Assembly: GCA_023245765.1 (NCBI GenBank)
Contig: JAHFJP010000001.1
Location: 1-64,000 of the forward strand
Length of the DNA stretch: 64,000 nucleotides
Direction: 5' to 3'
From: Candidatus Peribacteria bacterium
GTDB lineage: Bacteria > Patescibacteriota > Gracilibacteria > Peribacterales > Peribacteraceae
The position numbers and the translations under genes are program-made. Positions 41,173 to 46,908 of this stretch are shown one piece after another (positions within the stretch are counted from its first letter, which is position 1; the number at the start of each line of letters is the position of its first letter). Under the pieces are notes generated by a model. That model had not been told where the DNA came from. It saw nothing but the letters and a program-made list of their open reading frames with translations, and did not search any database.

Positions 41173-42633
41173 TTGAATCCCACCGCCACTCTTTCCCCGG
41201 CTCCCACTTCTCCCGCTGTTTCGACGTCCGATCTGTGGCTGCGCATCCTCAAGATCATCGAATCCAAGATCCAGCGCGGACAGTTCATCACGTGGTTTAA
41301 AGATACTGCCGTGCTCGGTTTGGAAGAGGGGAATCTCGTCGTCGGATTGCCGCTGCCGATGTTCCTCACCTGGCACATGCAGCACTACCGCACGATGACG
41401 CTCGAGGCGGCGCAGGAGATCGATCCCAGCATCCGGGAGATCGTCTACACGGTCGACGTCGGGCTCAAGGACAACCGCGAGCGCAGCACCGACCTGCTTG
41501 AGCATTTTCCCGAACTGAAGAAGCGCAAGGTGGCGGGGCGCCAGGAGGTGAAACTTGCTGAGGGCATCGTCAGTAAAATCCTCAGCCCCAAGTACATGAT
41601 CGAGAACTTTATCGTGGGGACTAATAACCGCCTCGCGCATGCCGCCTGCATGGCCGTCGCCCGCGAACCGGGGGGCAAATACAATCCACTCTTCCTCTAC
41701 GGCGGCGTCGGGCTTGGCAAAACGCATCTGCTGCAGGCGACGGGCAATGCGATCCTCAAAGCACATCCGCGTTCGACCGTCGTCTACACCACGAGCGAGG
41801 ACTTCACGAACCAGGTGGTCGAGGCGATCCAGCATCAGAAGATGGATCAGTTCAACCGCCGGTACCGCACGGTCGATGTGCTGATCATCGACGATATCCA
41901 GTTCATTGCGAACAAGGACCGCACGCAGGAGATCTTCTTCCACACGTTCAATGCCCTCTACGAGGAGCGCAAGCAGGTGATCATCTCCGCCGACCGGCCG
42001 CCGCAGGAGCTTCAGTTGGAAGACCGTCTCATCTCCCGCTTCGCCCGCGGCATGATCGCCGACGTCTCGCAGCCCGACTACGAAACACGCCTCGCGATCC
42101 TCAGTGAAAAAGCTGCCGAATACGAAATCTTCCTCGACCGCGCGGTGCTCGAATTCATCGCGCAGCATGTGACCAAAAACGTCCGCGAACTCGAAGGCAT
42201 CCTGATGCAGGCGGTCGCGCTCTATGAGCTTGAGCAGCGGATGCCGACGGTGCGGTCCATTTCCGAAATCATGAGCAAGCTCAGCATGGATCCGCTCAAG
42301 GATGAGGAAACGGTTGGCTTCACGAAGGCCCCCAAGCGCAAGCCGACGTTTCAGGAAATCATGGAAGCGGTGAGCCGCTACTACTCGGTCAGTATTCAGG
42401 ACATGGTCGGTGCCAGCCGCGTTCGCGAAGTGCTCCACCCGCGACAGGTTGCGATGCTCCTCGGCAAAAAACATCTCGACATGAGTTACGTCCGCCTCGG
42501 TGAAGTCTTCGGTGGGCGCGACCACACGACGGTGATGAACGCGCTTAAAAAAGTCGACGGACGGCAGCATAATGATCCGCAGTTGCTCAGGGAAATCCGG
42601 GCCGTGGAGGTGGAGTTGGGATTGGTGCAGTGA
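41173..42633 (+). CDS. dnaA: Chromosomal replication initiator protein DnaA (TTG start)
   Basis: NPLFLYGGVGLGKTHLLQATGNAIL, VLIIDDIQFIANKDRTQEIFFHTFNAL, DNA-binding DHTTVMNALKKV. Confidence 0.96.
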   Translation: MNPTATLSPAPTSPAVSTSDLWLRILKIIESKIQRGQFITWFKDTAVLGLEEGNLVVGLPLPMFLTWHMQHYRTMTLEAAQEIDPSIREIVYTVDVGLKDNRERSTDLLEHFPELKKRKVAGRQEVKLAEGIVSKILSPKYMIENFIVGTNNRLAHAACMAVAREPGGKYNPLFLYGGVGLGKTHLLQATGNAILKAHPRSTVVYTTSEDFTNQVVEAIQHQKMDQFNRRYRTVDVLIIDDIQFIANKDRTQEIFFHTFNALYEERKQVIISADRPPQELQLEDRLISRFARGMIADVSQPDYETRLAILSEKAAEYEIFLDRAVLEFIAQHVTKNVRELEGILMQAVALYELEQRMPTVRSISEIMSKLSMDPLKDEETVGFTKAPKRKPTFQEIMEAVSRYYSVSIQDMVGASRVREVLHPRQVAMLLGKKHLDMSYVRLGEVFGGRDHTTVMNALKKVDGRQHNDPQLLREIRAVEVELGLVQ

Positions 42634-42683: not shown

Positions 42684-43394
42684 GTGAATCAGGAGCCAAT
42701 TCTCATCGAGCCTCTGTCGCCACTCAAGCCGATTTATCTGATGTCCGAACAAGGAGTGACCGACGACCAGATGCGGGCTATTACCGAGGGTATTCATGCG
42801 GTGCTCAATGTGGCGCAACAGAAAATGCCAATTTATGACTTTGGTCATTGGCGTCATACGCAGTGGCGTGACAATGGACAATTGCGGCCGTTCCACAGTG
42901 TTGATTGGTATCTTGAACGAGCACAAGAAGAGAGCGATCGTGCAGAGCAACTAAACGCAGACACCCTGCTCAATCTGCTCGCCATGGAACCCTGGCGCAA
43001 TCCCGATGAGGGCGGTCAACGTCATTATGACGTCGTTGTTCTCCAGAGTGATCTGTATTCCGGAAGCGACAACAACCGTTTCATTATTGGAGGAGCGTAT
43101 CCCGATCTGGGAGCGGCGATCTCCGTGAACAGATTTCAAGGATTGGAACCATCGTTGCAATTTGATTGCATCGTGACGGAGACCATCCACGAGATGGGCC
43201 ATGTTTTCGGACTCATACCTCCTGGGCGTCAAAGGAATGTTGAAGAATCGTTGGGAAAGCACTGCACAAACGTCTGTAGTATGCGACAGGGGGTGAATGT
43301 GCCGATGGATTGGATTCGGTTTACCCGCGATCGTCTTCAGCAAGGACCATTCTGCACTGACTGTGAACAGGACCTGCGAGGGTTCTTTGCATAA
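42684..43394 (+). CDS. Archaemetzincin-like (peptidase M54-type) zinc metalloprotease
   Basis: HEMGHVFGL ... HCTNVCSM ... FCTDCEQDL; matches the HExxHxxG / HC..C.M / FCxxC pattern. Confidence 0.75.
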   Translation: MNQEPILIEPLSPLKPIYLMSEQGVTDDQMRAITEGIHAVLNVAQQKMPIYDFGHWRHTQWRDNGQLRPFHSVDWYLERAQEESDRAEQLNADTLLNLLAMEPWRNPDEGGQRHYDVVVLQSDLYSGSDNNRFIIGGAYPDLGAAISVNRFQGLEPSLQFDCIVTETIHEMGHVFGLIPPGRQRNVEESLGKHCTNVCSMRQGVNVPMDWIRFTRDRLQQGPFCTDCEQDLRGFFA

Positions 43395-43561: not shown

Positions 43562-45898
43562 ATGCCGCTCGATACCTATTCCAAGCTGATTGAACTGCTC
43601 GATCAGCATAAAGCGAAGTACCGCCTGATCGATCACGAGCCCGAGGGCCGGACCGAAATCGTGAGCAAGATGCGCGGCAACAACGTCTCGCAGGCGGCGA
43701 ACTGCATTGTCATGATGTTGAAGATTGGGAAGAAAGAGACGAAGTACGTCCTCGCTGTCTATCCCGCGGATAGGAAGCTTGATTTCAATGCAGTGAAAGC
43801 ATTGTTCAATGGAACCTACGCGTCGTTCGCGACCAAGGAGAAAGCGGAAGAACTTGCGGGCAGCGTTCTTGGGACGGTGCTGCCGTTTTCCTTCAATGAC
43901 GATCTCGAACTCATTGTCGATCCTCTTCTTCTGGAGAATGAGGAGATCTTCTTCAATGCCGCACGGTTGGATCGTTCCATGGCGCTGAAAACGAAAGACT
44001 ATGTCGCGATCACGAAACCGCGGCTCGAATCCATCGCGCAGTCAGCATCATCCGCATCAACCGGAGTCGCGGTTTCACCGGGCAAAAAGAAAGAAGGACC
44101 TGTCGTCGATGATCTCTACAAACTGCGCCACTCGCTCGCACACGTGCTCGCGCAGGCGGTGACTAAACTCTGGCCCGCGACCAAGATCACGATTGGGCCG
44201 CCAATTGAGTACGGCTGTTACTACGATTTCCTCTTCGAGAAGCCAATTTCCGAGGAGCACTTCCCCGCGATCGAGAAGGAGATGAAGAAGATCATTCAAC
44301 AAGGTCAGACCTTCCGATGCGATGAACTTTCCGCAGCCGATGCCAAGAAATTTTGGAAGGGTCGCAAGCAGCAGTTCAAAGTCGAACTCATTGAAGATCT
44401 GGAGAAGAACGACAAGGTCACGACCGTGACCAACTACGCCAACCTCGGTCCGAAAGGGGAGGAGACGTTCGTCGATCTCTGTCGTGGCGGCCATGTGGAG
44501 AATCTGAAGGAAATTCCCGTCGACGCATTCAAGATCATGACATTGGCCGGTGCCTACTGGAGAGGGGATGAGAAGCGCGAGCAGCTCACCCGGATTTATG
44601 TCGCCGCGTTCCCATCGAAAGCCGAACTCGATCAATATCTGCTGATTCTCGAAGAGGCCCGCAAGCGCGACCACCGCAAGCTTGGCAAGGAACTTGATCT
44701 CTTCACGTTCAGCGAACTCGTCGGGCCCGGACTTCCTTTATGGACTCCGCGGGGAACACTGCTGCGGAATTTATTGGATGGCTATGTGTGGGAACTGCGC
44801 AGCGCGAAAGGCTACGAGCGCGTGACGATCCCGCACATCACCAAAAAAGAACTCTACGAGACGTCCGGGCACTGGCAGAAATTCCAGAACGATCTGTTCC
44901 ATGTGCGGACGCGTGAGGGGCATGACTTCTGCATGAAGCCGATGAACTGCCCGCACCACACGCAGATCTTCGCGAGCAATCAACGGAGTTACCGCGATAT
45001 GCCGCAGCGGTACGCCGAAACCACGACCTGCTACCGCGACGAGCAGACGGGTGAACTGCACGGGCTCTCGCGCGTTCGGGCCTTTACGCAAGATGACGCG
45101 CACGTCTTCTGTCGTCCAAGTCAGGCGAAAGACGAGATCCTGAAGATCTGGGAGATCGTCGATACGTTCTACCAGACGGTCGGATTTGGAAAGCTCCGCG
45201 TACGTCTCTCACTGCACGATCCTGCTGCGTTTGAAAAATATCTCGGCACGCCCGCGATGTGGAAGAATGCGGAAGGGGAGCTCCGGAGTATCGCGGTCGA
45301 TCGCAAGGCGGACTTCTTTGAAGCACCCGGTGAGGCGGCATTCTACGGTCCCAAAGTCGACTTCATTGCAAAAGATTCCATCGGACGCGAGTGGCAGGTG
45401 GCGACGATCCAGCTCGATATCAACATGCCCGAGCGGTTTGACCTCTTCTGCATCGATGAGAAGGGCAACCACGAACGCTGCGTGATGATCCATGCGGCGA
45501 TCATGGGATCGCTCGAGCGCTTCCTCTCGATCTTCATCGAACATCATGCGGGCCTCTTCCCGCTCTGGGTCGCGCCTGTACAGGTGGGCCTCATCCCCGT
45601 TGCGGGAAGTCATGAAGATGCCGCCCGCGCGCTCGAGGCACAGCTCAAACAACACGGCATCCGGACGCAGTTCTTCGGTCATGAAGACTCACTGGGGAAG
45701 AGAATCCGTGATGGAGAGATGTGGAAGATTCCCTATCTGCTCGTGATGGGGGATAAGGAGGTGGAAGCGAAGAGTGTGACGGTCCGCAACGTCAAAACCA
45801 AGAAGCAGGTAACGGCGTCGATCCATGAGTTCCTCACCAAGACGATGGAGGACGTTCGGGACAGACGGTTGGAAGCGTCGATTGGAATACTAGAGTAA
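43562..45898 (+). CDS. thrS: Threonine--tRNA ligase with N-terminal YbaK/EbsC (INS) editing-like domain
   Basis: Residues 1 to ~165 YbaK-like (YVLAVYPADRKLDFNAVKALFNG...GSVLGTVLPFSFNDDLELIVDPLLLENEEIFFNAARLDRSM); then ThrRS N2 HSLAHVLAQAV/DLCRGGHV and the class II catalytic core. Confidence 0.9.
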   Translation: MPLDTYSKLIELLDQHKAKYRLIDHEPEGRTEIVSKMRGNNVSQAANCIVMMLKIGKKETKYVLAVYPADRKLDFNAVKALFNGTYASFATKEKAEELAGSVLGTVLPFSFNDDLELIVDPLLLENEEIFFNAARLDRSMALKTKDYVAITKPRLESIAQSASSASTGVAVSPGKKKEGPVVDDLYKLRHSLAHVLAQAVTKLWPATKITIGPPIEYGCYYDFLFEKPISEEHFPAIEKEMKKIIQQGQTFRCDELSAADAKKFWKGRKQQFKVELIEDLEKNDKVTTVTNYANLGPKGEETFVDLCRGGHVENLKEIPVDAFKIMTLAGAYWRGDEKREQLTRIYVAAFPSKAELDQYLLILEEARKRDHRKLGKELDLFTFSELVGPGLPLWTPRGTLLRNLLDGYVWELRSAKGYERVTIPHITKKELYETSGHWQKFQNDLFHVRTREGHDFCMKPMNCPHHTQIFASNQRSYRDMPQRYAETTTCYRDEQTGELHGLSRVRAFTQDDAHVFCRPSQAKDEILKIWEIVDTFYQTVGFGKLRVRLSLHDPAAFEKYLGTPAMWKNAEGELRSIAVDRKADFFEAPGEAAFYGPKVDFIAKDSIGREWQVATIQLDINMPERFDLFCIDEKGNHERCVMIHAAIMGSLERFLSIFIEHHAGLFPLWVAPVQVGLIPVAGSHEDAARALEAQLKQHGIRTQFFGHEDSLGKRIRDGEMWKIPYLLVMGDKEVEAKSVTVRNVKTKKQVTASIHEFLTKTMEDVRDRRLEASIGILE

Positions 45899-45984: not shown

Positions 45985-46908
45985 ATGTTTCAAGCCTTCG
46001 AAATCGGCCCCTTCCTGATCTGGACCCGCCTCATCTTCATCCTTGTCGGTATCTGGCTCAGTACGGAGTTCTTTTTGCGCATTGCCGAGAGCGCCAATCT
46101 CAGCCTCCAGCATTTTCGCGATCACAGTCTGTGGTACGTGGTCGCGTTCGTGACCGGAGGCAGATTTGTGGCCATCCTCGCCGATTACAAGGCGTACCTG
46201 CGCGAACCGCTGAGGACGTTCTTCCTGCACGACGGGAACTTCAGCTTCCTCGGCGGTGCAATCGGCATTGGCGTGGTTCTCTACATCGTCACACGCGGGC
46301 AGCGCACGACGTTCCTCCAGTGGCTGGATGCACTGCTGCCGGCTGCTACGCTCGGTCTTGTCTTCTCCTGGCTTGGATCCTTCTTCGCGGGGGATGCCTA
46401 CGGCAAGCCGACCGACATGTTTTGGGGCGTCATCTACGACGCGAGCAATGTCCGTTACACGATTCCGCTGCATCCCGTGCAGATGTACTACGCACTCTTT
46501 TACTTCCTGCTCACATTTCTGCTCCTGATTATCCGAAAGCGCAGTAAGCGCGTGGGGGCCGAGACGCTCTTTGGCATCGTCGTGGCCTGCCTTGGAACGT
46601 TCCTGCTCGAAACGTATCGCGGGGACTTCAGCATTCCGGTCTTCGCCACGCTGTTCGATTTCATCTTGCTGACGTTCCTCTTCGTGAGCCTTGGCGTGTT
46701 CGCGCTCATCGAAAATCGCATCAGCAAATCCGTCTCGCTCGGGTACGAAGCGGCGCTCTTCACTGCCACGATTGCCTACATGTTCGCGCGTCCGTGGCTC
46801 GACTTCGAAACATATGAACTGCGCATCAGTCAGCTTCTCGCCGTACTGGCGCTGCTCGTGACCGTTGTGTATGTTGTGGTGGAACGACGGAGGTATCCGT
46901 ACTTTTGA
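45985..46908 (+). CDS. lgt: Prolipoprotein diacylglyceryl transferase
   Basis: GGRFVAILADY, FSFLGGAIG, AGDAYGKPTDMFWGVIY, HPVQMYYALFYFLLTFLLL. Confidence 0.85.
   Translation: MFQAFEIGPFLIWTRLIFILVGIWLSTEFFLRIAESANLSLQHFRDHSLWYVVAFVTGGRFVAILADYKAYLREPLRTFFLHDGNFSFLGGAIGIGVVLYIVTRGQRTTFLQWLDALLPAATLGLVFSWLGSFFAGDAYGKPTDMFWGVIYDASNVRYTIPLHPVQMYYALFYFLLTFLLLIIRKRSKRVGAETLFGIVVACLGTFLLETYRGDFSIPVFATLFDFILLTFLFVSLGVFALIENRISKSVSLGYEAALFTATIAYMFARPWLDFETYELRISQLLAVLALLVTVVYVVVERRRYPYF

Follow-up and report, generated by a model that had tools for sequence, protein, structure and literature searches.

Why should a threonyl-tRNA synthetase (ThrRS) that already has an editing domain carry another domain of an editing fold at its N-terminus? 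The N2 domain of bacterial ThrRS and the DTD-like domain of archaeal ThrRS (PF08915) both carry out cis-editing of Ser-tRNA-Thr. In the stretch of DNA analysed here (the window, 64,000 nucleotides, from contig C40 of a Peribacteraceae genome of the Patescibacteria, G000, of 1.45 Mb in 71 contigs), a ThrRS gene with an intact N2 site begins with a domain of the INS superfamily. Is the fusion real, where else does such a domain occur, and is it likely to be a deacylase still?

The fused gene and its domains

The gene is laid out as follows, positions being those of the window.

43562..45898, + strand: fused INS-ThrRS gene, a single intact open reading frame of 778 aa and the genome's sole ThrRS
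43574..44041, + strand: N-terminal INS-superfamily domain of the subfamily here called Thr-INS, residues 5-160 (PF04073 core 43655-44005)
44042..44110, + strand: linker rich in Ala, Ser and Lys that joins INS to N2; the dN/dS table shows no constraint on it
44114..44656, + strand: N2 editing domain, with His190/His194 and Cys307/His311 intact (PF07973 at 44462-44599)
44897..45547, + strand: class II catalytic core (PF00587)
45581..45841, + strand: anticodon-binding domain (PF03129)

The first-pass annotation had read the N-terminus as a YbaK/INS domain, and this domain is real: PF04073 matches residues 32-148 of the 778-aa protein with an E value of 1.8e-16 and 60.7 bits, against a cut-off of 25.5. 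The other Pfam families expected are there as well, PF07973 at residues 301-346, PF00587 at 446-662 and PF03129 at 674-760, and the TGS family, PF02824, finds no match in the fused ThrRS. As a whole the protein is a ThrRS by the NCBIfam equivalog TIGR00418 (640 bits, cut-off 383.65), and it stays below the cut-offs of the YbaK equivalogs TIGR00011 (41.8 versus 153.25 bits) and NF007951 (19.2 versus 243). The start at 43562 is consistent with the starts of homologues (MPLDTY, MPQDIY, MNASLDTY). Genome-wide ThrRS matches identify one ThrRS in G000, the fused one; two further PF04073 proteins are encoded, an INS domain internal to ProRS (L001) and a stand-alone protein of 158 aa (L002). An assembly or frameshift artefact, by which two separate genes would have been joined, can be rejected: the reading frame is unbroken, three other genomes of the family also carry the fusion, and the locus is conserved.

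The ThrRS body looks complete, and the N2 histidines and full class II core that had been annotated are borne out by alignment with the E. coli and S. aureus enzymes. The four catalytic N2 residues of the E. coli enzyme (1qf6), His73, His77, Cys182 and His186, align with His190, His194, Cys307 and His311, and the zinc residues of the core, Cys334, His385 and His511, are kept as Cys463, His514 and His644. The structure prediction suggested at first pass helps less. The AlphaFold models are of low confidence (mean pLDDT 57 for the INS domain and 59.5 at full length), so that the proteins that rank top in a Foldseek search with such a model (ProX, APE2540, YbaK and ProRS-INS) give weak support for the fold.

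Distribution and mobility of Thr-INS

A search of nucleotide contigs with the N-terminal domain returned six loci, 66-93% identical: two from Peribacteria/Peregrinibacteria and one each from Gottesmanbacteria, Woesearchaeota, Micrarchaeota and an unclassified archaeon. L064, a named near relative, comes from a MAG of the Peribacteraceae. With profile A2, members of this group score 265-317 bits, the fused domain of the window 314.9, and every other INS domain at most 106. Thr-INS is a rare and sharply bounded subfamily of INS domains. Fifteen members were found, five of them stand-alone proteins of DPANN archaea and ten fused to ThrRS: four in Peribacteraceae, two of Microgenomates type and four in Woesearchaeota, in at least five ThrRS body contexts. 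ThrRS is the sole fusion partner found for Thr-INS, and every fused member has it.

How rare is rare? The survey for the fusion called for in the first-pass annotation found it in 4 of 74 Peribacteraceae genomes (G000, G396, G398 and G420), and relatives of it in Microgenomates-type bacteria and Woesearchaeota; the other 70 Peribacteraceae genomes, including G188 of the same genus, have no INS domain on their ThrRS. A single-sequence query of a spread sample of the phylum hit 1 genome in 380, the hit being the gene of the window itself. The class of the Gottesmanbacteria genome has Thr-INS in 2 of 329 genomes, the phylum of the Micrarchaeota genome in 2 of 245, and the class of the Woesearchaeota genome in 3 of 378; the family of the Woesearchaeota genome adds the fused G1419, and its order a further three that stand alone. 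Contaminating contigs are a poor explanation of the archaeal members: L066 lies beside an archaeal gatD with GatD_N, and L067 and L069 are on multi-gene, archaeal-looking contigs. The stand-alone Thr-INS genes show no linkage to thrS, which counts against a role with ThrRS. Two of them adjoin asparaginase-family genes (L066, 826-2160, - strand; L227, near 4286, + strand), one neighbour being gatD by profile and the other assigned by reading of its sequence.

The fused enzymes differ in the company that the INS domain keeps. Peribacteraceae have the order INS-N2-core-anticodon domain, with an Asn at the catalytic Lys position of INS and an intact N2. The Microgenomates-type proteins L068 and L167 have the same order and an intact N2, with Lys in INS; a putative translation initiation factor IF-3-like frame follows L068. 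In the Woesearchaeota proteins L069, L165 and L166, an archaeal editing domain (PF08915 by Pfam on L069, and by blastp to the L069 domain for the other two) precedes a Lys-bearing INS, an N2 remnant without HxxxH or Cys/His, and the core. G1419 has PF08915, INS with Lys and a core of a different kind, and the N2 residues are absent. Among genomes with a stand-alone Thr-INS, G439, G1465, G1477 and G1534 have a bacterial-type ThrRS with N2 motifs and, as we read the sequences, an apparent TGS domain, and G438 has an archaeal-type ThrRS. Two observations on ThrRS bodies may be recorded here. In further Woesearchaeota ThrRSs, L197-L212 and others, an archaeal editing domain and a core of bacterial type are connected by a remnant of N2 that has lost most or all of the four catalytic residues. 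Several of the Microgenomates-type thrS genes L171, L189, L190, L192 and L188 are split into frames or have an insertion in the core, near residue 615 of the query.

What evolutionary steps account for this pattern? The INS domains are 66-73% identical between bacteria and archaea, and the ThrRS bodies are only about 40% identical, so the domain moves independently of the bodies; the INS domain of G000 itself is 66-72% identical to the Gottesmanbacteria and archaeal copies. When the fused label is mapped on a tree of 69 ThrRS bodies, seven changes are needed, all of them forced by starred branches, with gains and losses indistinguishable; the body closest to the fused ThrRS of G000 is the unfused one of G188, at 90%. 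The INS tree has a Peribacteraceae group (98/97), a Woesearchaeota group (90/90) and a Microgenomates-type group (94/89). In Peribacteraceae the neighbours of thrS are the following.

41173..42633, + strand: dnaA (Pfam), which precedes thrS in Peribacteraceae with and without the fusion
45985..46908, + strand: lgt (Pfam), which follows thrS in most of the Peribacteraceae that were compared

The fused gene lies between dnaA and lgt in G000, G398 and G420; G396 has dnaA upstream of its fused thrS, and lgt was not detected there. Since thrS lies beside dnaA in both fused and unfused genomes, genomes with and without INS differ by an alteration of the 5' end of a gene that was already resident there. 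In the window a frame of 236 aa (42684-43394) separates dnaA from thrS; it matches nothing in Pfam, contains HEMGH, a motif resembling HExxH, and was not found at this place in the relatives compared. The rest of the Peribacteraceae ThrRS is itself a mosaic: when 44102-45895 is set against L049, L055, L062, L059 and L060, identity across the family is mostly about 75-90% in the N2 region and falls to about 30-50% between the three types of core, which suggests that the core has been replaced beside a resident N2.

The active site and the role of the domain

Does the fused domain retain the INS active site? The residues concerned are these.

43667..43669, + strand: Lys36; Lys, Arg or Gln in Peribacteraceae and Pro in all Lys-type members
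43700..43702, + strand: Asn47 (codon AAC), at the place of the catalytic Lys of INS domains, which is Lys45 in ProXp-ala; the 11 members from outside Peribacteraceae have Lys
43760..43768, + strand: Tyr67-Pro-Ala69; Val/Ile-Pro-Gly in Lys-type members
43871..43885, + strand: GTVLP, residues 104-108, the GXXXP loop of the INS superfamily, retained in the alignment

The GXXXP loop is a motif of the superfamily (PMC11286415), as is a strictly conserved Lys; in every member tested, deacylation suffers dramatically when this Lys is replaced by Ala (PMC10164551). That the fused domain has no such lysine was overlooked at first pass. All 11 Thr-INS members from outside Peribacteraceae have Lys at the position, and all four Peribacteraceae have Asn. 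Among the 114 distinct INS domains that we read, the Lys is missing from only five, these four and one AspRS-fused domain with Arg; an apparent Glu in L002 was a one-residue misalignment, its Lys being present, and was set aside in this count. Exactly four positions set the Peribacteraceae apart from residues that are otherwise near-invariant: Pro36 is changed to Lys, Arg or (in G396) Gln, Lys47 to Asn, Val/Ile67 to Tyr and Gly69 to Ala. Residue 69 aligns with Gly63 of Caulobacter ProXp-ala, the NMR signal of which shifts in the K45A mutant (PMC10164551), and so two of the four changes, at 47 and 69, are probably neighbours in the active site.

The domain is nevertheless under strong purifying selection. 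By the Nei-Gojobori method the comparison of G000 with G398 gives dN/dS values of 0.036 for INS, 0.049 for N2, 0.060 for the core and 0.107 for the anticodon domain, and that with G420 gives 0.062 for INS and 0.100 for N2; INS is the lowest of all the domains in both pairs, and the values are approximate, as dS is above 1 and near saturation (1.2-1.4 across the gene for G000 and G398, INS being like the rest). The low INS values and the consistent order of the domains between the pairs argue against simple decay. INS identity among the Peribacteraceae fusions is 70-93%, with no frameshift or stop in the four genomes. It could still be supposed that the domain was acquired, lost its function in a Peribacteraceae ancestor and is now a neutral remnant being discarded, given that the lysine is gone and that 70 of the 74 genomes, G188 among them, are without the domain. 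A domain held more tightly than the rest of its enzyme (0.036-0.062) largely refutes this idea, and we consider it very improbable.

What, then, might the domain do? That Thr-INS is fused to ThrRS only, on several bodies and in two domains of life, leads us to infer that it serves tRNA-Thr. Thr-INS would be a horizontally mobile subfamily, rare, that works with ThrRS and tRNA-Thr and has here been attached N-terminally to the cell's only ThrRS. The Lys-type members, whether in the Woesearchaeota and Microgenomates-type fusions or as stand-alone archaeal proteins, are likely deacylases. Acting in cis or in trans, they would most likely hydrolyse a mischarged tRNA-Thr and form a sieve additional to N2 or the archaeal editing domain. 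Because these lineages already have one or the other, the INS domain may take a non-Ser error or check for Ser a second time. In Peribacteraceae, with the site remodelled at 47, 69, 67 and 36, ordinary INS deacylation has probably been lost or strongly changed. The Asn-type domain would most likely bind the acceptor end of the tRNA, or hand it over, while itself hydrolysing little or nothing, Ser-tRNA-Thr being cleared by the intact N2 site. To this whole reading, a remodelled domain kept on the sole ThrRS as an acceptor-end module whose Lys-type relatives are a tRNA-Thr sieve, we would give an even chance of being right. Asn47 or a basic residue 36 might, however, still position A76, and Lys to Ala is the only substitution assayed at the INS lysine in the literature that we read (PMC10164551).

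The Asn-type domain probably does without the standard mechanism and is either a non-hydrolytic binder of the acceptor end, our first choice, or a re-tuned hydrolase. In the latter case Asn47, a basic or polar residue 36 and Tyr67 would replace the Lys, and the domain would be an active second site of changed chemistry, clearing tRNA-Thr charged with something other than Ser, such as Ala, Cys, 2-aminobutyrate or a further analogue of threonine. The joint change of four near-invariant positions and the very low dN/dS resemble re-tuning rather than decay, the strong constraint would also suit an enzyme that is active with an altered specificity, and the GXXXP loop is retained. INS enzymes accept Ala, Cys, Abu, Ser and Thr (PMC11295145), and all of the fused members already own a domain that edits Ser-tRNA-Thr, or the lineage's equivalent. 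Loss of the strictly conserved Lys, however, impaired every INS member tested (PMC10164551), and Gln36 in G396 means that a compensating charge is not universal. A re-tuned hydrolase is a serious possibility that we nonetheless rather doubt. The "two-editing-site ThrRS" of the first-pass annotation is accordingly right as to architecture and N2, and unlikely as to the chemistry of INS, with Asn47 in place of Lys in all four Peribacteraceae. The two-site idea fits better the Lys-bearing relatives, the two Microgenomates-type proteins with Lys and an intact N2 and the four of Woesearchaeota with Lys and the archaeal domain. The other early suggestion, INS editing of another tRNA such as Ala/Ser-tRNAPro, is less likely, since only ThrRS has been found as a fusion partner of Thr-INS.

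Might INS simply fill, as a structural part, the place of the TGS/N1 domain that the protein lacks? It has the N-terminal place in a protein without TGS, and the first-pass annotation was correct that TGS is absent. Unfused ThrRSs of the family, which serve as their cells' ThrRS, are also without TGS: L036 has no PF02824 match, and the ThrRS matches in the family begin near residue 180. In Woesearchaeota, moreover, INS is an internal domain, with the archaeal editing domain before it and the N2 remnant or core after it. We therefore reject the idea that INS sits in the stead of TGS; a structural role of that kind seems very improbable.

Known INS systems and significance

INS members outside the ProRS context are described as single-domain proteins, and ProXp-ala-ProRS fusions occur in protists (PMC11295145); the MCP3 domain of trypanosomes is a further ProRS-linked case (PMC11286415). 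The ProXp-ala-ProRS proteins of Plasmodium, Leishmania and Trypanosoma likewise place INS N-terminal to a class II synthetase, in cis (PMC11295145, PMC11286415), whereas here the partner is ThrRS with its own editing domain, the INS subfamily is another, and the catalytic Lys is absent. ProXp-ST1/ST2 (YeaK) and FthB, deacylases of Ser/Thr-tRNA and fluorothreonyl-tRNA, have the INS fold and act on aminoacyl-tRNA-Thr (PMC11295145), but they are single-domain trans factors, and we set Thr-INS beside them by description, not by sequence. YbaK/EbsC, the Cys-tRNAPro deacylase, belongs to the same Pfam family, has the GXXXP loop and can be aligned (E. coli YbaK, 2dxa); the fused domain differs in its 41.8 bits against the TIGR00011 cut-off, in its replaced Lys and in being joined to ThrRS. 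The best PDB sequence match to the Thr-INS profile is Legionella lpg1207 (3op6, E 8e-11), an uncharacterised single-domain protein that keeps the Lys. Both N2 and PF08915 occur beside Thr-INS in relatives; their folds are unrelated to it, and INS is an addition. We found no description of an INS-ThrRS fusion in the open-licence literature, a scope that makes this weak evidence of absence. Both component domains are already known; their joining would be the new part.

ThrRS is not the only synthetase in these lineages to carry an INS domain. AspRS proteins that end in an INS domain (PF04073) are common among Patescibacteria and within the Woesearchaeota class, on bodies of both bacterial and archaeal type. 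We read 23 (L008, L013, L015, L023, L025, L028, L031, L103, L127, L129-L131, L133, L135, L137-L139, L141, L159, L160, L162, L191 and L246), and about 40 INS matches in the class of the Gottesmanbacteria genome sit in frames of AspRS-INS size. We know of no need for editing by AspRS, and no paper on an AspRS-INS fusion was found in the open-licence literature. Their abundance suggests that INS has been recruited to several synthetases in these lineages. L161 (G844:C35) is a LeuRS of 1026 aa with an N-terminal INS besides its own CP1 editing domain. L014 and L022, as we read them, combine INS, a transmembrane segment and a putative D-alanyl-D-alanine carboxypeptidase domain in one frame of 509-540 aa.

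Tentatively, and with a chance somewhat short of even, we regard Thr-INS as a mobile tRNA-Thr editing module of CPR and DPANN that has been joined repeatedly to unrelated ThrRS bodies and has become non-hydrolytic, or Lys-independent, in one lineage. A Lys-less INS domain kept under selection would, if true, be the first such shown. The natural Lys-to-Asn change, together with Lys-bearing homologues 66-73% identical, is a ready test of the role of the catalytic lysine. ThrRS-INS proteins, with up to three editing-type domains in Woesearchaeota, imply either an unrecognised error on tRNA-Thr in the cells of CPR and DPANN or a non-hydrolytic use of the INS fold.
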